A DNA stretch of 64,000 bases from Dolomedes plantarius (Eukaryota; Arthropoda; Arachnida; Araneae; Dolomedidae). Below are positions 3,228 to 63,923 of the stretch, in pieces. Both the position numbers and the translations under genes were made by a program. The stretch is from NCBI GenBank assembly GCA_907164885.2, contig OU015503.1:123789056-123853055 (forward strand). Reading direction: 5' to 3'. The notes under the pieces were generated by a model that worked only from the letters and a program-made list of their open reading frames with translations, had not been told where the DNA came from and ran no database searches. Position 1 is the first letter of the stretch, and every line of letters starts with the position of its first letter.

Positions 3228-4803
3228 CAGTGGAACCTCCCGTAACGGACACTCCCGAATAGCGGACACCTCTAATTAAAGGACATTTTTACGAGTCCCA
3301 GTCCTTTTATATAGGACAATCCATGTTATTCCCTCTGAATAGCGGACACTCCGAATAGCGGACAAGTATTTTGAAAAACTTTCAATTATTTTGGCAAACA
3401 TTTCAAAATTAGAAACTTTTAACGCCTCAAATGGATGGATGGAAAAATTCCGGACACGTCACAACATATTTTTTAAACAGATTTGTGTTGAAGAAATATC
3501 TGTAAATTCAAATGAAGTAACAGATTGGATTGGAAGGCTTAAATATTTGTGCAAAGGATATGGTGACAGAGACATTTTCGATGCCGATGAGTCTGGCCTC
3601 TTTTGCCGCGTCCTTCCAGACAAGACCTTATGTTTTAAGGGTGGACATTGTAGTGGCGGGAAATTTCAAAAGAGCGGCTCACTCTTTTGCTGCGTTGCAA
3701 CATGCTGGGAGACTTCGGAACTCCAATTGTTATTGGAAAAGCTAAGAAGCCTAGATGTTTCAAGAACATTGATGTGCGAAAATTTAGTGTTCCGTGGAAG
3801 TCAAATAAGAAAGCGTGGATAACCACTGAGATAATGAGCGATTGATTGGTGGAGTTAGACAAAAAAATGAAAAACAAAAGAGAAAAATCATTCTGTTCAT
3901 GGACAATGCTACAACCAATTTCAGGGAATTATCCGCAGCTTTAAAGTACGATACAGAAATCTGCTTCTGACACAGATTATCTCCTGCAAATCCAGCGAAG
4001 AGTTGGCAAAATCGGTGTCTGTTTTGGATTCAATGTCCTGGACTACGTCAGCCCTTAAAAAGGTGGAACCTGGGTGCGTTCTAAAATGTTTTAAGAAGAC
4101 GGGATTTTTGAGTACAAGCGAAGTGGCAACTGACAGCACTACCGAAAAAAACAAAAATGAATTTGCGGATCTAGTAGCGAATTTGGATTCAAATGTCAGC
4201 GTTGAAGAGGAAGTCAAGATAGACGACGATTTATTCATTGGGGAAGAAAACCTGCGTGTTTCCAATTTCATTGATCGGGCCACCACTGAAGCACCGGCCC
4301 TTTCTGAGGATGATGATGATGAGGAATCGCCAATGGAAGACTGCAAAATCAAAGATAATTCGGAAGCACTGAAATACAGCGAACAATTCAAACATTTCTT
4401 TCTGAACAGCGAAGATTCGGAGGGAATAGCAAAGCTAAATCCTATGAAGATTCATCTTGAAAAACAGGTTTGTTGTGTAAAAGAGAGAAATCAAACTTTG
4501 TTAAGATATTTTTTCAGCAGTAATTAAAATAATTTAGCTACTATACATTGTATTTTGGGATGATTTAATGCAAGATAAAATATTAGCACACAATTAAAAG
4601 GAAAAGTAGTAAATAGTTATTCTTTTCTTGCCTAATTAATTTTTCCTTTTGAATTAAAATTGAAGCCGTAATTTTCAATCAAATGTCAAACAAAAGAGCA
4701 AAAACTTTTTTAAAAAAACGTTGTCCTCCCCTATAGCGGAGACCTCCTAATAACGGACAAAACTGTTGGTCCCGTGACTGTCCACTTTTCGGAGGTACCA
4801 CTG
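3228..4803 (+). mobile_element. Tigger/pogo-type element, copy 1
   Basis: Bounded by TA at 3226-3227 and 4804-4805. The left end is CAGTGGAACCTCCCG; the right end, reversed, is CAGTGGTACCTCCG. The interior contains CENP-B-type helix-turn-helix and DDE fragments. Compared with copy 2, about 100 bp are missing near 3915 (after FMDNAT) and a few more near 3975. Those deletions remove the region around the second catalytic Asp. Confidence 0.9.
3391..4527 (+). pseudogene. Tigger transposase pseudogene
   Basis: The first part (3391 to about 3670) carries the end of a CENP-B DNA-binding domain (FNASNGWMEKFRTRHNI) and the first catalytic motif FDADESGLF. A frame change near 3670 interrupts the protein. 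The remaining DDE sequence is internally deleted, and the acidic C-terminal tail resumes at 4003-4527 (repeated Asp/Glu codons near 4305). With two frame disruptions and internal deletions it cannot encode a working transposase. Confidence 0.85.
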
Positions 4804-4841
4804 TATATATATGTATGTAAATGTATGTATATATATATATA

Positions 4842-6271
4842 CAGTGAAACCTCCCTTAACGGACACTCCCGAATAGCTAACACCTCTAATTAACGGACAT
4901 TTTTACTAGTCCCAGTCCTTTTATATAAGACAATCCATGTTTTTCCCTCTGAATAGCGGACAGGTATTTTTTGAAAAACTTTCAATTATTTTGGCAAATA
5001 TTTCAAAATTAGAAACTTTTAACGCATCAAATGGATGGATGGAAAAATTCCGGACACGTCACAACATATTTTTTAAGCAGATTTGAGGTGAAGAAAAATT
5101 TGTAAATTCAAGTGAAGTAACAGATTGGATTGGAAAGCTTAAATCTTTGTGCAAAGGATATGATGACAGAGACATTTTCGATGCCGATGATTCTGGCCTC
5201 TTTTGCCGCGTCCTTTCGGACAAGACCTTATGTTTTAAGGGTGAAAAATGTAGTGGCGGGAAAATTTCAAAAGAGCGGCTCACTCTTTTGCTGCGTTGCA
5301 ACATGCTGGGAGACTTCGAAACTCCAATTGTTATTGGAAAAGCTAAGAAGCCTAGATGTTTCAGGAACATTAATGTGCGAAAATTTAGTGTTTCGTGGAA
5401 GTCAAATAAGAAAGCGTGGATAACCCCGGAGATAATGAGCGATTAGTTGGTGGAGTTAGACAACAAAATAAAAAATAAAAAGAGAAAAATCAATCTGTTC
5501 ATGGACAATGCTACTTCCCATCCTGATGATTTAAAGCTAAAAAGTGTTAATTTAATTTTCTTGACTCCTAACACCACTTCGATGCTACAGTCACTTGATC
5601 AGGGAATTATCCTCAGCTTTAAAGTACGATACAGAAAGCTGCTTCTGAGACATGTGCTTTCACGGATTATCTCCTGCAAATCCAGCGAAGAGTTGGTAAA
5701 ATCGATGTCTGTTTTGGATGCAATTTCCTGGACTACGTCAGCCCTTAAAAAGGTGGAACCTGGGTGCGTTCTAAATATGTTTTAAGAAGACGGGATTTTT
5801 GAGTACAAGCGAAGTGGCAACTGACAGTGCTACCGAAAAAAGCAAAAAAGAACTTGCGGATGTAATAGTCAATTTGGATTCAAATGTCAGCGTTGAAGAG
5901 GAAGTGAAGATCGACGACGATTTATCCATTGAGGAAAAAAACCTGCGTGTTTCCGATTTCATTCATCGGGCCACCACTGAAGCACTGGCCTTTTCGGAGG
6001 ATGATGATGATGAGGAATCGCCAATGGAAGACTGCAAAGACAAAAAGACTTACCAGTTCTTTGTTAAGAAATGATGCGAAAAGTTATTTTTATATCTTTC
6101 CATGTCTTGTAAACAATACTATGTCAATTTGTTACAAAACATAGTTTTCGATCGTAATAAACGGTCTGCTTGGTCAAGGATTTTGTTTTGCTTGTTACCC
6201 ATATTACCCGGATTTTCGACTGTCCGGATTGTCTATGGTCCCAGTGAGTCCGGATAAACGAGGTTTTACTA
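4842..6271 (+). mobile_element. Tigger/pogo-type element, copy 2, with mismatched ends
   Basis: The left end CAGTGAAACCTCCC follows TA at 4840-4841 and matches copy 1 through the coding region. The right end (GGATAAACGAGGTTTTACTA, then TA) does not match copy 1. Instead, 6040-6271 reversed aligns closely with the left part of the MITE at 16113-16567. Similarity to copy 1 stops at about 6038. The element is therefore a hybrid of two Tigger families, or an end replacement. Confidence 0.88.
5101..6073 (+). pseudogene. Tigger transposase pseudogene (copy 2)
   Basis: The DDE domain is better preserved than in copy 1: FDADDSGLF at the first Asp, FMDNATSHPDD at the second, then NTTSMLQSLDQGI. Reading shifts at about 5140-5150, a stop follows NKKAWITPEIMSD at 5444, and another shift lies near 5785. 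The CENP-B HTH region upstream (about 5000-5100) is also recognisable but interrupted. The last dozen residues (KDKKTYQFFVKK) come from the foreign right end. Confidence 0.85.
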
Positions 6272-32335: not shown

Positions 32336-32564
32336 GAGACCGGAAACACTCGCGGTATTTTGGAAACTTGGAGGACATTGCAGCTACGATAGATTTTTTC
32401 CCGTGTGTCAGCCGCCTTTAGTGTACACGTCGGGGGATTTGTCAGCGAACTAGCAACTTACAGGTTACTGGCTCGATGCCTTTGACAACTGGGCCCATCA
32501 CCTCCATGTGAACCCTGCTGTTCTGTTCGGATCTATTTGACCCGAAATAAATTTGATCAGTGTA

Positions 32565-33289
32565 CAGAGTCTGTTCACACATTTTTTAGACGATGTATAT
32601 TGTATTCACAAAACTAAATTACATAAAATTCTTGTGTTTTAAATGTTCTATTTGACATCCCTTATTCTGAACTATCTTTCCACACCGCAATTTCCAGGAT
32701 AATAATGCCTTTTGAAGCGTCAGAAGAGGTATTCTATCCCATTCCTCCTGAACAGCTTTCCAGAGTCCTGTAAGGGTTTTGGGACGACGTTTGGATAATG
32801 CAGATTTTAAAAGCACAAAAATCCATAGGTCATACATCGGGAGATTTAGTAGGGATATCAGTGAAGGGTATGGCCTTGATACCAGTTTTTTTGTTCCATT
32901 TCTTTTAGGAAATTTACAGTGGATTTTGATGTGTGACTGCTAGCTCTGTCCCGATGGAGTCTCACAGATTGATGGCACTGTGGGTAAAGCGATGGTATTT
33001 CATTCAGAAAAATTGGCGATAAAATATGTTCCTGATAGTATTTGGAGTTAATCTTGACATTTCTTTCCACTCTCTTTATTTTTAACTTGCCATTATAAGA
33101 AACACCAGCAACAATCATGAATCCCTTAGAAAAACTTTCTTTCAACCATGTACTTAAATTTTTTTCTCCCCTTTTATGATAATAAATGGCTCTTTTTTTT
33201 GTTGCAATCATTTAAATACACCCATGATTCATCTATTGCGACAATTGTTTTCCATTTTTCTTTGGATAAGTGTTTCTCATATAGAATAT
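32565..33289 (-). mobile_element. DD41D (rosa-like) Tc1/mariner element, 5'-truncated
   Basis: The end CAGAGTCTGTTCACACATTT at 32565, next to TA at 32563-32564, is the 3' end of an element identical in type to the complete copy at 33591-34889 but reversed. Similarity ends at 33289 inside the coding region (ILYEKHLSKEKWKT). Reverse-strand pieces at 33374-33174, 33211-32858 and 32837-32619 give IDESWV, HRDRASSHTSKSTVNFL and RPKTLTGLWKAVQEEWDR. Confidence 0.88.
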
Positions 33290-33590
33290 TAGGCGATGGT
33301 ATAAACCAGTGCTCCGCAACCATCGTGCGCGAGGTGATTTTATCGATTATAATAATAAAAAAATTAACTATCACTATTAGTTAGAAATTTTTCTAAGTAA
33401 AATATTCCTCTAACTTACTCCTAAATATTCCTCCTTAATTTCTCTGGGTCGAAACTATACAAAAAAAAAAGAAAAAAAAATTGTTACCGTACATTGTATG
33501 TATGCTCGAGCGTTATATTTCTGGATTTCAGTTAAGAAAGAATATCCACAAATTGCTGACAAGGCCATTGCTCCCTTTTTCTACCACATA

Positions 33591-34889
33591 CAGAGGCTGT
33601 TCGCACATTTTTTAGACGATTTTGGTAAGCGGTAATAAAAAAGCGTTCGCTGCAAAAGAAATAATTGCAATTGTACTATGTTTTTAAAAGTCAAAATTAT
33701 CGTCTGCGGCTTGAAAGTTTTGTTTTTATTCAAAATGGCATTTTTAACGAAGCAGTGGTTCGAAGGCTACATTTATGCTCTTTCCGAAGAGAAATATGCA
33801 TACTCCGTTATCCAAAATCGATGTGAGAGTCATGATTTTGTGATATCTAAAGCGTCGATAGGTAATGTCGTCAACAAGAAAGGAAAAAACGTCAAATTGG
33901 AGCCTCAAGTGGGACAAAAATTCCAAACAATTATCCGAGGAAAAAACGGACATCTTCGACTATTGCAAAGGTACGTTGTTTAATGTTAAAAGAAAATCCT
34001 CCTAGTCAAAGGACAGTTGCAAAATCATTAAAATGCTCGGTGTCCACTGTAAACAAAATGATAAACGTTTATTTAAATCTTAAGAAAGTGAAAAAACGCA
34101 ATGTGCATCGTCTTCTTCCAAATCATATCGCTGAACGCAGGACACGCTGCAGAATTCTATATGAGAAACACTTATCCAAAGAAAAATGGAAAACAATTGT
34201 CACAATAGATGAATCATGGGTGTGTTTAAATGATTGCAACAAAAAAGATCCATTTATTATCATAAAATGGGAGAAAAAAATTTAAGTACATGGTTCAAAG
34301 AATCGAAAGAAAGTTTTTCTAAGGAATTCATGATTGTTGCTGGTGTTTCTTATAATGGCAAGTTAAAAATAAAGAGAGTGGAAAAAATGTCAAGAATAAC
34401 TCCAAATACTATCAGAAACATATTTTATCGTCAATTTTTCTGAATGAAATACCCTCGCTTTACCCACAGTGCCATCAATCTGCGAGACTCCATCAGGACA
34501 GAGCTAGCAGTCACACATCAAAATCCACTGTAAATTTCCTAAAAGAAATGGAACAAAAAACTGGTATGAAGGCCATACCCTTCACTGATATCCCTACTAA
34601 ATCTCCCGATGTATCACCTATGGATTTTTGTTGTTTCGGACTTTTAAAATCTGCATTATCCAAACGTCGTCCCAAAACCCTTACTGGACTCTGGAAAGCT
34701 GTTGAGGAGGAATGGGATAGAATACCTCTTCTGACACTTCAAAAGGCATTATTATGCTGGAAATTGCGGTGTCGAAAGATAGTTCAGAATAAGGGATGTC
34801 AAATAGAACATTTAAAACACAAGAATTTTATGTAATTTAGTTTTGTGAATACGATATGCATCGTCTAAAAAATGTGTGAACAGCCTCTG
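33591..34889 (+). mobile_element. Full-length DD41D (rosa-like) element
   Basis: Ends CAGAGGCTGTTCGCACATTT and, reversed, CAGAGGCTGTTCACACATTT (match continues to TAGACGAT), flanked by TA. Length 1299 bp, inserted inside the hAT at 33307-35377. Confidence 0.93.
33678..34835 (+). pseudogene. DD41D transposase pseudogene
   Basis: HTH region at 33738-33970 (KQWFEGYIYALSEEK), then NPPSQRTVAKSLKCSVSTVN after a frameshift near 33970. First catalytic Asp in TIDESWVCLND (about 34206). Second Asp in LHQDRASSHTSKS (about 34500), third in SPDVSPMDFC (about 34620). Between the last two I count 41 residues, the spacing of the rosa/Visitor clade of Tc1/mariner elements. Three frame changes make it non-functional, but most of the protein is still legible. 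Confidence 0.9.
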
Positions 34890-35385
34890 TACTTATGCGA
34901 GCAAAGTTTTTCGACGCTGGTTCTAATTAAAATTGACAAACGATCCTGATTAAAGGGTCTTGGCCATGAACTTCGAGTAGCTCTTTCTAATATAGAACCA
35001 AATATAAAACGTGCATGCATATGTTCATCAAAACAAGCTCAAATATCTTATTAATAAATGAGTTACATTTAAATTAACTTTGATTTATTAGGCTTAAGTA
35101 AAGACCAAAAAACAAATTTTAATAAAAAAATTTAAAGAGATTTTTTTTTTTACTTGTAAACTATAACTTTATATTTTTGTTCTTCTGTTGGAGTACGATT
35201 TATATAAAACTTATAATTATCTTGTTACATAGAGCCGTTTTATTGTGTTTTTATCTAATTAAAACATATACGTATTTATTGTAATTATGTGTTTGCAAGC
35301 TTTTTCTTGTGGTGTGCCGCGGAATTATCGAAAAAAATGCTGTTGTGCCGTGGAAGATAAAAGGTTGCCGAGCTCTGGTATAAAC

Positions 35386-35782
35386 CATTCCAAGACACGG
35401 GTTGTCCGTGGAAGCAGTGTATGCAGACATGCTCCCAAAAGTTTGGGACGAAATTGCCCAGTGGCGTAGCGAGAGGGGGGCAAGGGGTCTATCATGCCCC
35501 GCTAAGACCATTGGACCCTTATGTCCCCCAAGACGACAAGGGGCGCCTAAAAGGTATCGTGCCCCGAGCGCCAGTTATGCTCGCTACGCCACTGAAATTG
35601 CCTACCGTATAAACATAATAATTTCGTGCATCCAAAGGTGGGCATATTGAGCACCTTTAATTTGGTTTGTAAAAGAAAACTTTATGATTAGCGATGTAAT
35701 AGAAAATTAATATTAAGTTTTTATGTTTAATATTTTTCATGACACACTCATTTCAAATCGGGTAATTTTTTTAAACACCCTG
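35386..35782 (+). mobile_element. Tc1-type element, 3' remnant
   Basis: Codons near 35410-35460 and 35603-35650 read ADMLPKVWDEIA-YRINIII, a typical Tc1 C-terminus. The right end CGGGTAATTTTTTTAAACAC is followed by CCTG and TA (35783-35784). The left part is absent. A 136-bp MITE interrupts it. Confidence 0.7.
35459..35594. mobile_element. 136-bp hAT-type MITE
   Basis: Ends CAGTGGCGTAGCGAG, perfectly inverted at the right end, with the exact 8-bp duplication AAATTGCC at 35451-35458 and 35595-35602. Short GC-rich body without coding. Confidence 0.96.
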
Positions 35783-44737: not shown

Positions 44738-46123
44738 CTACTCACATGCAGTGTAGACGAAATGATTCTCTCCTGTGTGGGTTCGGAGATGTTTCTTTAA
44801 ATTACCCTGATCAGAAAATCTTTTCGCGCATACAGTGCAGGCGAAAGGTTTTTCTCTTGTGTGGATGCGGAGATGTCTCTTTAAAGAACCATGTTCAGAA
44901 AATCTTTTCTCACACACAGTGCACGCGAAAGGTTTCTCTCCTGTGTGGGTGCGGAGATGTGTCTTTAAATGACCCCGTTCAGTAAATCTTTTCGCGCATA
45001 CAGTGCAGGCGAAAGGTTTCTCTCCTGTGTGGGTGAAGAGATGGGTTCTTAAAGTGGACGGCATAGAAAATCTATTTCCACATACAGTGCACGCGAAAGG
45101 TTTCTCTCCTGTATGGGTGCTGAGATGGTTTCTTAAAATGGACGGCATAGAAAATCTTTTCTCGCATATAGTGCATGCGAAAGGTTTCTCTCCTGTGTGG
45201 GTGCGGAGATGTGCCTTTAAATGACCCGGTTGAGAATATCTTTTGTCACATACAGTGCAGGCGAAATGTTTCTCTCCTGTGTGGGTAAAGAGATGGTTTC
45301 TTAAAGTGGACGACCTAGAAAATCTTTTTCCACATACAGTGCAGGCAAAAGGCTTTTCTCCTGTATGGGTGCTGAGATGGTTTCTTAAAATGGACGGCAT
45401 AGAAAATCTTTTCTCGCATACAGTGCAAGCGAAAGGTTTCTCACCTGTATGAGTGCGGAGATGTCTCTTTAAATTGACCCGATCAGAATATCTTATCGCA
45501 CATACAGTGCAGGCGAAAGGTTTCTCTCCTGTGTGGATGTGGAGATGTCTTTTTAATTCCTGATGTCGAGAAAATCTTTTCTCGCATTCAGTACAGGCGA
45601 AAGGTTTCTCTCCTGTGTGAGTGCGGAGATGCATCTTTAAAAGACACTGATCAGAAAATCCTTTCTTGCATACAGTGCAGGCGAAAGGTTTCTCTCCTGT
45701 GTGGGTGCGGAGATGTCTCTTTAAATTACCCCGATCAGAAAATCTTTTCGCACATACAGTGCAGGCGAAAGGTTTCTCTCCTGTGTGCGTGCGGAGATGT
45801 TTATTTAAGGAACCCTGTTCAGAAAATCTTTTCTCACATACAGTGCAGGTGAAAGGTTTTTCTGTACGGGTACAGAGAGTATTATCAGCAATGTGGTACG
45901 AATGATGCGTGTTTAAGGCGGCCAACTGTGAAAATGTTCCTTCACATAATTTACATTTGAAAATTTCTTCGGTGGGAGGGGTAATCTGTGCACTGGGACT
46001 TTTTACATTTAGGCTTATTCTACATGCGTCACATGGAGTGCATTCATCTTCGGCTCCAGTAGGGTTCTGTTCGCAGGTATGGCTTTTCACACTGGAAATT
46101 CCCGACGTTTGCTCGTCTGGCAT
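44738..46123 (-). CDS. C2H2 zinc-finger protein with 14 complete fingers
   Basis: 461 codons from ATG 46123 to TGA near 44738, in a single open exon. Residues 1-55 lack a recognisable KRAB, SCAN or ZAD domain. A first atypical finger ([20 protein letters not shown]) is followed by 13 fingers of the form FACTVC-x-KRFS-x5-L-x2-HLRTH, joined by TGEKPF linkers, so it probably binds DNA in the nucleus. Fingers 7-9 and 10-12 are near-duplicates ([12 protein letters not shown] shared), and fingers 2-3 resemble 13-14. A good 3' splice site (CTCCTCTGTTTGCAG) ends at 46243 upstream, suggesting a 5' UTR intron. The protein stops part-way into finger 15 (FVYTACE). Target and biological role are unknown. 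Confidence 0.85.
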
Positions 46124-46228
46124 GCTGACGTTTATTTACACGATGATCACAAAACTGAAACCGCCAGCAATACGCCGAACTTCTAAATTTGTGGAGACCA
46201 CAAAGATTTTAGTTCCGCAAGTAACAAT

Positions 46229-58216: not shown

Positions 58217-58774
58217 TACATCGTAAGGTTTAAGAGAATATAATCACTCTTTCGTTGAGAGTTCTGTCATTCGAAGTGAGTACATCTTTTTTTGACAGAG
58301 TGTTCAAGCATGTATTTTCGCATGAATATTTGAAATAAACTCGTTTTGTCACAGATGTTCAAGGTTTTTTTCCTTAAATTATTTTTATTGATCAATATCA
58401 TGTCATCCTTTTTACTTATTTTGCGTCTGTATAAATGGTACGATGCGTTAAAGTACTGTATGGACCAGTAGCGTACGTAGAAATTTTCAAAGGGGGGTGT
58501 TATAGTCCAGTCAAATTAGGTTTTCATTTCGCATTAAATGAACGGATTGAGATTTTTTCAGGAATGTGTAGGGGTTGGTCCCCTGAACAACGCCTAATAA
58601 AGTCCCCTCGATTTCAGGCGCCGCGGGGGGTGGGGTTGTCCAAAGGTCACTTTTTTCAGTTTTTGGCGTTTATCTCGAAAACGGTGCATCGCACAGAAAA
58701 TTGTCAAATGCAAAAATTAAAGCTTATAAAATTCCCTTCCAAATGGTATATCCATGTTTGTACCCAAGTGTTAC

Positions 58775-60077
58775 CGTAGACATAGACATGGTACATTAAC
58801 GAGGCACCAGAGAGCAGGGCTCCATATCCCCGGTATGGATAATTTTTTGTGGCTATATTTCCGTTCTCAGGATTAAAAGAAAAGTGTTGACTTGAAAGTT
58901 AGAATAATAATAAAAATATTAATAATAATAATAAATAAATAAAAATAAATAATACTAATACTAGCAAAAAATAAATAAGTAAATAATGTGGCAGGTTTTA
59001 TTTAAAAAAAATTACGGTGGCAGACGATTAAGCAAAAATTAGTAAGGATAGTCTTGAGGTCGATCCATCAAAAAAAACGCAGCTCAGAACCAGAAGCAAC
59101 GGCAAATGTAAATTAAAATTTAGAAGAGGTTGGAGGGAGAGTTAAGAAAGGGGAAGGAGACCAGGGCGAATAATCAAAGTTGCCTTAGGATGCCTATAGC
59201 ATTCCCTTGGGTCGTAGTCGGGAGGTTAGCTATTTCTTCGTTGTCTATTGAATATAATCTATTGTAGAACTTAGATGCGAGATCTTTAATGTGTTACCGA
59301 ATGGGTTCGATTCTCAGATCTCTGTGAATAAGTACGTTTTTAAGGTACCAGGGCGCCTTCCTAATACCGCGGAGTGTTTATTTTGAATTGTCTGCAATCG
59401 CTGGATATGGGTGTCAGCCGCTGAGCCCCAAACAGGAACGGCGTACAACAGGATGGGACGCAGTACGGTTTTATACAAGAGTAGTTTGTTATCTAAACCC
59501 TTTTGATTCTGGTACAGGAGGTGGGCGATATCCTTACGGGCTTAAAAAAATTTCTAATGTTATGTTCAATATTTTTCTTCCACGTCAGTCGACTATCGAG
59601 GTAAATTCCTAGGTCCACCAGAAGACTTTGTCCACAAGAAGACTTGTAGTACAAAGGAGGAAGTAAGAAAGCAAACAAAAATGTATAAAAGTGTCACTTT
59701 AGCTCAGATCATTTTGGAAAACTTATATATCACACCATATGAAAAAGAATAAGTAGTTCAGTTACTTCAGACCTCAGTAGAAATGGCCCTCTCTCTCAAA
59801 GTGAACCAGTTGATTGCATACTGTGACCGGAGGAGGTGGAATTCTATTGTAACTGAAAAAAATAGCTTTAGATTTTGAAGGACTTAACTTGAGCCTCCAC
59901 TGTTTGAACCATCTTTCAAGAATTCCAATATGTCTCTGTAGGAACTTGTGCATATATTTAACATTTTGATGCTTAGGTAGTATTGCCGCGTCATCCGCAA
60001 ACATGGCTAGTGTAGTGAATGGAGAGTTAGGAATGTCATTCATAAAAATATCAAAAAGGATAGGTGCTAACTTAGAG
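58775..60077 (-). mobile_element. Jockey-like LINE, 5'-truncated, inserted in the left inverted repeat
   Basis: Flanked by CCCAAGTGTTAC at 58763-58774 and 60078-60089, a 12-bp target duplication of the kind LINEs make. Coding is on the reverse strand. 5' truncated within the reverse transcriptase. No poly-A tail is seen at the 3' side. Confidence 0.9.
59150..60077 (-). pseudogene. LINE reverse transcriptase fragment
   Basis: Reverse strand from 60077: GSKLAPILFDIFMNDIP, TTLAMFADDAAILPKHQ (the catalytic xADD box), then LVHFEREG. After a 153-bp foreign segment (59631-59783) it continues LGIYLDSRLTWKKNIEH, YAVPVWGSAADTHIQRLQTI, and, in shifted frames, a C-terminal region to about 59150. The fingers and 5' palm of the reverse transcriptase, the endonuclease and ORF1 are missing. 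Confidence 0.9.
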
Positions 60078-60542
60078 CCCAAGTGTTACTGTTTTCGAGA
60101 TATGAGCCGTTGAATATGAAATTTTTTCAAAAAAAGTGGTAGCGGTTCTGGTATCTCGTCAAACTTCCCCTTCTAACTCTTTCCCCTTACATTTCTCAGA
60201 AAACTCGTGATAGAGAAAGTTGTAGAGCGAAAGATTTCCTTCAAAAATGTATAAAATTACGCTAATTTATCTTCACCAGGTAAATAGTTAGAGCGTTTTG
60301 AAGTTTTGGGGTACTTTTCAACATTTTGTTAGTAAAATGCTCGTCACTCAAGTTCCGTTTCCAAGGTCTGTAACTCTCTTAATCACTTTGCATTCTGTTT
60401 AATTACATACGCACAGTATTCACAACCCATATAAATAATAAATTATGTATACCTGTACGTATAATGTATATCTTATAATATACACAAGAAGACTTGTAGT
60501 ACAAAGGAGGAAGTAAGAAAACAAACAAAAATGTATAAAAGT

Positions 60543-62495
60543 GTCACTTTAGCTCAGATCATTTTGGAAAACTTATATATCACACCATATGAAAAAGAAT
60601 AAGTAGTTCAGTTACTTCAGACCTCAGTAGAAATTACTCCACAACACATTTCCACAAATACCTTCCTTGCCAGCATTCAGTGGAATTTGAGCAATGAATT
60701 GTCACGTCTCAAAGGTAAAGGGCCAACAGCAGCTTTGTGGGTCCAGTACTTTGAAATGGTGGTGTTGATGAAAAAATTCATTGCAGCACAGCACACTGGT
60801 AACTGGGAAGATCATATGACATGTGCCCAACTGATGACACCTTACTTCCATGCCAGCGGGCATTTTCATTATGCAAAGTGTACTCACGTATATGTACAAC
60901 ACATGCTGGGACTAACAACTCGCCACCTTCAACTTAAACAGGATTTTATAAATCGTGGACACTTCACTGTCAACAGAACTGGAACACCAATGGCTGGTGT
61001 GCGGTCTGACATGGCAATTGAGGTGACACTCATGTGTGACATGAAGAGTGAAGGAGAATTAACACGTGGGCGAGGCTTTAGCGATTCGGTGTTGGCGAAA
61101 TGGGTTGGGGGAGCACGCACAGCTACAGCAATATGTGGTTCACTTGAGATGTTTTGTGGCGTCCATACTGCAAGAGGAGAACAACATGTTGAGTTTCGAG
61201 CATCACGCATAACCAGAGATGATCTAGACAGAAGGAAGCTTGCTCAATGGTTGGCTGATCACCCGCCTTTTGCTGAACGTAATTGTTTGATGTCACTTTC
61301 AACGGGAGTAATTGGAACAAGTAACGTCAACTGCTACCAGGCCTTGAAAATTGGAACCCGCACAATGAGCACTTTTGTTGGAATGAATTTCTCAGAAGTG
61401 AAACAATCCAAGAAGGACTCAGTCGTTACTTTAGCTGCGATAAGCAATATGATCAAAGTTAATGATGAGGTAGTGGTGGTAGAGCCTCTGATGATATTTC
61501 AAAGAACTCTGATCACCAAGAAGAAAGAAGGGGATGTATAGGAGTTGCTAACGTATGAGTTAGCCCCATACCCTATGTCTCTATTCGCCGAGGGGATAAT
61601 GAGATAAATCAAAAAGTCAGCACTGTATAATGCTTTCCCAAAATGTAATCAAATGATCAATGTGAAGAACAGTTTCACGGTAATCGATGGCTTCCTGCTT
61701 CATAGAGTAAAGTGGAACACCAACACCACCTTCGCCTCCATCTGCGATCAATATGTATCGCACATAATCAACCATTACGGCAGCAGTTCAGCTGTGGTTT
61801 TTGATGGTTATGAAGACATGGACTCCACGGAAAGAGACGAACAACATCGGAGAGCATCAAGTAAAACATCAGTGGATATTGACTTCAATAAGAACATGGT
61901 GGCTACTGTTCACCAGGAAAACTTCCTTTCTAATGAAAGGAACAAAACCAAGCTCATTACTATGTTAGTTCAGGCCTTAGGTGCAAGAGATATACAGTCT
62001 ACTATAGCCAAAGGAGATGCTGACTGCAGTATTGTCAGGGGTGGGTGGCAAAACACCTCTCATTCAACTGTGGTGATAGTAGATGGGTAAGACCTGCTCG
62101 TCTTACTTGTGGCTCTCACCCCACGAGACACGAATGTGTTTTTTATGAAGACCGGACGGGGCAACACAGAAGACAGGCTCTACTCTTCACAACATCTTCA
62201 GGTCTTATCATTCAGTCAGTACATTCTCTTCATCCATAGTTTCTCAGGATGTGACACTACGTCAGCGATTTATGGTAAAAGCAAAGCAGCAATAGTACAA
62301 TGTTTCCAGCGGTATGCCAATGAAACAACAAACATCGCCAAAGTGTTTTATAACTCCAAATCTTCACCAGGAGACATTGCTGGAGCTGAGGAACGAATGT
62401 TCCTGCTCACGTACCAGGTCCCGCCAAATGAACATGATCTCAATCACCACAGGTACCTTTCATTTTTCTTTTCTCGTACTGACCCCATTAAGTAA
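60543..62495 (+). pseudogene. FEN/XPG-like nuclease-family protein of the long-TIR element
   Basis: A single frame of about 650 codons is interrupted only by stops at 60600, 61539, 61605 and 62088, with no frameshift. First half: GPTAALWVQYFEMVVLMKKF, TPYFHASGHFHYAKCTHVYV, GVHTARGEQHVEF. Second half, in the order seen in FEN1/XPG nucleases: AVVFDGYEDMDS (about 61795), GDADCSIV (about 62018), DLLVLLVAL (after the 62088 stop), then FSGCDTTSAIYGKSK (about 62241). The family is common, multi-copy and unnamed in animals. Nuclease activity is inferred from motifs. The C-terminus beyond HHRYLSFFF appears lost at about 62470. Confidence 0.8.
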
Positions 62496-62540
62496 ATTTA
62501 ATAATTTATATAATTCATTAATATTCAATAATACGTTATA

Positions 62541-62871
62541 CATTATCTGGCCAAAAGTATCCGGACACCCCCCCCCCCCCTAAGGAAGTGGATCTAGCAG
62601 GTGACGTAATTTGATGCGTAACCGAAAGCTATAAAAGTATTGGTAGTGGTTTGTCAGGTCATATTATTGGAGATAAAGTCCTACAGACCTTGGAGCTCCG
62701 ACAAGTTGAAATACCTGAACCTGAACCTGTCAGGTCATATTTATGCGTTTGTGAGACGATGAGTAAGTCAAAGGAGCTTAGTGACTTTGATCGTAGCATT
62801 ATAGTGGGATGCCACCTTTGTGGGAAATCAGTTCGTGAAAATTCGGACATTCTACAGAAGCTAAAATGATA
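62541..62871 (+). mobile_element. Tc1-like element 5' fragment
   Basis: Starts CATTATCTGGCCAAAAGTAT after TA at 62539-62540. Codes SKELSDFDRSIIVGCHLCGK and SVRENSDIL, a Tc1 N-terminal HTH, from ATG 62759. Similarity ends near 62871. A 76-bp stretch between copies of GTCAGGTCATATT (62653, 62729) interrupts the leader. The 3' end is missing. Confidence 0.82.
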
Positions 62872-63049
62872 GTGAAGACTGACTTGTTTGAAACATTTTC
62901 CGAAGTATCAGATTGACGGCTTTTAATATATAGCAGTTGATGAAAACAGTTGATGAAATCAGTTGATGAAATAAATTGTATATAATATATTTAATGTAAG
63001 TAACTGTTGTTTGAACCTACTTTTGATAACCATTTTTTGATTATATGAA

Positions 63050-63915
63050 CAACTTTTATACATTTTGGTTTGTTTCCTTACTTCCTCCTTTGTACTGCAA
63101 GTGTTCTTCTGTATATTAAGAGATACATTATGCGTACAGGTATACATAATTTATTATTTATATGGGTTATAAATATTATACGTATCTAATTAAACACCAT
63201 ACAAAGTGATTAAGGGAGTTACAGACCATGGAAACGAAATTTGAGTGACGAGCATTTCACAAGCAAAATGTTGAAAAGTACCCCTAAACTTCAAAACGCT
63301 CTAAGTATTTACCTGGTGAAAATAAATTAGCATAACTATATACATTTTTGAAGAAAATCTTTCGCTCTACAACTTTCTCTAACACGAGTTTTCTGAGAAA
63401 CGGAAGGGGAAAGAGTTAGAAGAGGAAGTTTGACGACATACCTGAATCTCTACCACTTTTTTTTAAAAATTTTCATATTCAATGGTTCATATCTTGAAAA
63501 CGGTAACACTTGGATAGAAATATAGACATACCATTTGGAAGGGAATTTTATAAGCTTTAGTTTTTGCATTTGACAATTTTCTGTGCGATGCTCCATTTCC
63601 GATATAAACGCCAAAAACTGAAAAAAGTGACCTTTGGACCCCCCCCCCCCCCCCCCCGGCGCCTGAAATCGAGGGGACTTTATTAGGCGTTGTTCAGGGG
63701 ACCAACTCCTACACATTCCTGAAAAAATCTCAACCCCTTCATTTAATGCATGATTCGCCGCCATTTTGAGCTAATTTGGCTGGACTATTATTATGAAAGA
63801 GTAGTTTTGAGCAATCAGTGCAAAGTGTAAACCTAATTAAATAATATATGTAATCAAAACCAATGGGGGGGGGGGGTTATAACCCCCATCAACCCCCCCC
63901 TTGCGTACGCCACTG
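63050..63915 (-). repeat. Right long terminal inverted repeat
   Basis: Inverse of the left repeat over about 770 shared bases. Carries long C/G runs at about 63640-63657 and 63866-63876 not present at the same length on the left. Confidence 0.88.
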
Positions 63916-63923
63916 GTATGGAC

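Follow-up and report, generated by a model that had tools for sequence, protein, structure and literature searches.

Why would a transposon that encodes a nuclease of Academ type be framed by an 8-bp target duplication, when AcademX elements duplicate 3–4 bp (PMC10045372)? The question is raised by positions 58466–63915 of a 64,000-nucleotide stretch of the Dolomedes plantarius genome (contig OU015503.1, positions 123,789,056 to 123,853,055 of the forward strand, assembly GCA_907164885.2; hereafter the window), which has CAGT(A/G)GCGTACG termini, GTATGGAC on both sides and exact boundaries. An earlier note on this DNA took the segment for a single element with long terminal inverted repeats and an 8-bp duplication, and saw in it an unusual relative of Academ or else a separate superfamily. 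Our analysis points instead to two nested transposons: very probably, an AcademX-type deletion derivative lies within a hAT/Pegasus-like MITE of about 162 bp, and the two were then mobilized together. The features of this composite, read accordingly, are as follows.

58458..58465: left 8-bp duplication GTATGGAC of the outer MITE and composite
58466..58502, plus strand: left piece (37 bp) of the probable outer hAT/Pegasus-like MITE, end CAGTAGCGTACG
58500..58502: left TTA, 3-bp duplication of the nested element
58503..63787, plus strand: nested element, a probable AcademX-type deletion derivative, ends TAGTCCAGTCAAATT / TAGTCCAGCCAAATT
58503..58774, plus strand: left inverted arm, outer part
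58775..60077, minus strand: LINE-type insert splitting the left arm, flanked by a 12-bp duplication (58763–58774 / 60078–60089)
59633..59784, plus strand: 152-bp copy of 60483–60634, inside the LINE insert
60078..60542, plus strand: left inverted arm, inner part, up to the start of protein homology
60543..62480, plus strand: broken fragment of a predicted DDE transposase / FEN-XPG nuclease fusion
61680..62264, plus strand: FEN/XPG blocks DG, VFDGY, DAD, a damaged DxDLL and SGCDTTS
62615..62869, plus strand: Tc1-like relic, profile match below the curated cut-off
63052..63787, minus strand: right inverted arm of the nested element
63788..63790: right TTA, 3-bp duplication of the nested element
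63788..63915, minus strand: right piece (128 bp including TTA) of the outer MITE, end CAGTGGCGTACG
63916..63923: right 8-bp duplication GTATGGAC

The termini and duplication described in the earlier note were confirmed by a scan of the window for CAGTGGCGTA-like ends (up to two mismatches, spacing of 50–12,000 bp, flanks with at most one mismatch), in which nine left and ten right sites yielded two pairs, the composite and a 136-bp MITE, both with perfect flanks. Identity of all eight flank letters has a chance probability of 3.3e-5, and this value, together with recurrence in genomic copies, led us to rule out a fortuitous pairing of the outer ends. These ends have 12 bp in common, with one mismatch, and lie outside the start of the arm match; the outer pieces of 37 bp and 128 bp, joined with one TTA, form a 162-bp MITE-like sequence. 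As in hAT elements, the outer MITE has an 8-bp duplication and short inverted ends of CAG type, and it is this combination of end sequence and duplication length that suggests a hAT assignment and, by extension, a hAT mover. Pegasus is itself hAT-like. The ends of hAT Tip100 (CAGGGGCGGAG; PMC12511174) and of the insect 8-bp MITE BmMITE-15 (CAGTGGCGTACCTA; PMC2997013) indicate that Tip100 and Pegasus-like insect MITEs have similar outer ends and 8-bp duplications, while the window's MITE differs from them by its 5.3-kb nested transposon. The 136-bp MITE at 35459–35594 belongs to the same end class and has a perfect 8-bp duplication without any insert. It is near-palindromic, with ends CAGTGGCGTAGCGAG and duplication AAATTGCC (35451–35602 including the duplications), and only one of four comparisons with the arms (first 56 bp, right end) scored above 100 shuffles.

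A second pair of ends lies within the first. The inner left end reads TAGTCCAGTCAAATTAG from 58503 and the inner right end CTGGACTA up to 63787, with TTA outside both, and the inner end motif TAGTCCAG begins where the arm match begins. The long inverted repeats of the earlier note are real, with 657 identities in 721 ungapped columns, but they start at 58502/63788 and not at the outer ends. With a DDE transposase (from the predicted fold of relative P0021), a nuclease and a 3-bp duplication within the 3–4 bp range of the published description, the nested element is in all likelihood of AcademX type, an assignment set by domain content and duplication length. The Academ lead of the earlier note is upheld, while its proposal of an unusual relative or other superfamily with 8-bp duplications finds no support, the protein's transposon having its own ends and 3-bp scar. 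The puzzling 8-bp scar around a nuclease transposon arises because the latter is nested in an 8-bp MITE, and we are confident that the duplication is a property of the surrounding MITE of about 162 bp.

The protein in the window is interrupted by four premature stops and corresponds to approximately residues 680–1330 of about 1460. Structure models were made for relatives, neither of them for the window fragment, and revealed a predicted FEN/XPG nuclease fold and, in relative P0021, a predicted RNase-H-like DDE transposase fold with a helical insertion; both the FEN/XPG-like protein and the hidden RNase-H-like domain that the earlier note had suspected in its first half are borne out in this way. 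On these models, proteins of the cargo family join a DDE transposase to a FEN/XPG nuclease. The seven metal-binding FEN/XPG acids, located by comparison with FEN1 residues that we take as reference, are present in 106–108 of 108 sequences in alignment A2, which leaves out 35 rows; exceptions occur among these, such as P0004 and P0009 with Y in place of D775. As third catalytic acid of the transposase, E433 was dropped for E511; the window copy, P0001 and P0027 have Q there. The predicted nuclease would share fold and acid positions with FEN1, Exo1 and XPG, at about 16% identity and differing by its fusion to a transposase; the predicted DDE fold with helical insertion would be shared with the P element, Transib, Hermes and RAG1, with undetectable sequence match. 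Solved structures searched by sequence gave chance-level matches only, and Foldseek with the transposase model gave no match at E 0.001. FEN-type nucleases came out on top in a viral structure library, with no fusion among the 50 matches listed, and a DNA search of viral and prokaryote contigs, collections that contain few eukaryotes, returned no relatives. No helicase was detected at E 0.01 in the 34 members scanned of 143 listed in the family, and Pfam matches of the arm and antisense ORFs were at chance level in a scan of all 12 ORFs of at least 80 aa overlapping the element. In relative P0159 the first ~40 residues look hAT-like (precomputed PF14291, which a repeat scan did not return) and are followed in frame by family sequence, possibly a nested insertion; the source given for relative P0115 is a rust fungus and that for P0219 a pepper plant, which may reflect transfer or contamination.

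Copies of the composite were sought in the genome (2.78 Gb, 390 contigs) with the outer left arm as query, giving 1890 first-look candidates, of which 40 were scored, including the window; the others have 95–97% identity to the query. Twenty of these 39, those nearest the window's own arm, were read. Both outer ends were found in 18 of them, and the 8-bp duplication was perfect in 15, with one mismatch in two and four mismatches in one, the right outer end having been picked, among the end motifs near its expected position, as the one whose flank agreed best; in L025 the duplication falls in a TG repeat. All 20 retain the protein fragment at least in part, in most cases about residues 692–1344 of P0055 (L012, L014 and L024 being shortest), and all have the inner left end, 37–38 bp inside the outer one. 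Both inner ends could be read in 14 copies, and their flanking 3 bp are equal in 13, the exception being L012 (TTG/TTA). Interiors are 93–98% identical to that of the window. The same-genome search proposed in the earlier note thus recovered the boundaries, with both ends and the protein together, upholding a mobile-element context for this protein family, and there is little doubt that MITE and insert have spread as one unit. The cargo is dead in the spreading lineage, because the stop at 62088 is kept in 15 of 16 readable copies.

Relatives with long open frames were retrieved by a genome search with P0027 (6408 candidates, 87 scored), several loci having open frames of 1046–1641 aa. Two of them, C1:140204533 and C10:81925940 (L037, L039–L042), have frames of 1641 aa and unlike flanks, and the limits of their homology are TAGTCCAGTCAATTTG and, inverted, TAGTCCAGTCAAATTG. 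The target duplications, as judged by eye from the flanking sequence, are 3 bp long (CTA/CTA and GAT/GAT), each with a chance probability of about 0.02 at the per-base rate of the window end scan. Their inverted arms measure ~260–370 bp, so that long arms are nothing unusual for such elements. The proteins are distant from the window's subfamily (39% to P0027), and 15 bp of the end are identical. The end stretches compared, left and right, are 98–99% alike between the two loci, and recent mobility of these relatives appears likely from sequence. A third long frame, on C13 (1545 aa), had no TAGTCC-type ends within the 7 kb read.

These observations bear on how the composite arose. That both outer ends surround the same fragment in 18 of 20 copies is what one would expect of a single element whose transposase–nuclease lineage itself yields 8-bp duplications at CAGTGGCG ends; however, the inner ends with their TTA repeats, the long-frame relatives with inner-type ends and 3-bp duplications, and a cargo that already has the stop at 62088 in 15 of the 16 copies readable there make such an element very improbable. 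The truncation of the protein fragment at both sides could point to a hAT element that captured transposon DNA, yet the piece in question ends in AcademX-type termini and is bordered on either side by a target duplication, as left by insertion, and we give this origin hardly any credence. An outer 162 bp belonging to a non-hAT superfamily with 8-bp duplications, e.g. P-like, overlaps with nesting as proposed here and differs in the outer mover only. The hAT label is drawn from the sequence of the ends and the length of the duplication; the match of these ends to hAT Tip100 and Pegasus-like MITEs renders a non-hAT mover unlikely.

Under the preferred reading, an AcademX-type transposon would have inserted into the ~162-bp MITE and duplicated TTA, its reduction to the arms and the middle of the gene having occurred before insertion or later. 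A hAT-type transposase acting in trans at the CAGT(A/G)GCGTACG ends could then have moved MITE and insert together, creating 8-bp duplications and many copies, and a LINE would have landed in the left arm of one lineage, which kept spreading. In the intact family protein, the DDE domain may cut and join the 3' ends, with the nuclease presumably cutting or trimming the other strand. A comparable division of labour between transposase and nuclease is that of Tn7 TnsA/TnsB. It is conceivable, if rather doubtful, that nesting made a fitter mobile unit, in that a MITE with an AcademX relic gained long fold-back arms and became widespread, and that the inner ends are still used, two unrelated transposases moving the same composite and leaving 8-bp or 3-bp scars.

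The LINE insert also occurs in six of the 20 other copies (L018, L019, L021, L025, L026 and L027), and its interpretation as a late private event of the window copy was rejected on these grounds. The 152-bp copy was not seen at that site in any of the 20, including the six with the LINE. Matches to the Tc1-like relic occur in 19 of 20 copies, in one over 59 bp only; being common to most copies, the relic predates the spread of the composite. The window carries the LINE, yet its interior is closest to LINE-less copies (97.9% to L017 and L023 vs ~94% to LINE carriers), and the window copy of the composite thus looks like a mosaic at the sequence level.

The nuclease of published AcademX is of XPG type. 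Like AcademX, the family combines a predicted DDE transposase and a nuclease with 3-bp duplications, in the nested element and the two long-frame relatives, while the window copy differs in being truncated and broken. AcademH shares the superfamily label but has a helicase and 9–10 bp duplications (PMC10045372), whereas the window family is without helicase in 34 members. In KolobokP, too, a DDE transposon carries a second nuclease (PMC9587614), and the defective long-armed copies of Galileo (PMC2775673) are a precedent made superfluous here by nesting. Nesting also reconciles the 8-bp scar with the duplication length published for AcademX and calls for caution, as a protein between transposon ends is not necessarily their mover. 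For a protein family that is large in animals and for the most part without a name, there is now a predicted structural identity, DDE transposase plus FEN/XPG nuclease, along with long-open-frame copies that have readable ends.

Elsewhere in the window, an uninterrupted 465-aa frame (44738–46135, minus strand) has 84-bp repeats that encode a dozen C2H2 zinc fingers and is possibly a host exon. At 528–1942, a DUF4371 remnant, which we take to be hAT-related, precedes a frame that overlaps it and has no match in Pfam, and a Tc5/pogo-like remnant at 3343–6051 is present in two copies ~1.6–1.7 kb apart with 91–96% identity. Inverted segments of 93–259 nt, 86–98% complementary, lie at 32562–34892, and those on the right overlap a 159-aa frame (34356–34835) that has no Pfam match and is mariner-like by eye.
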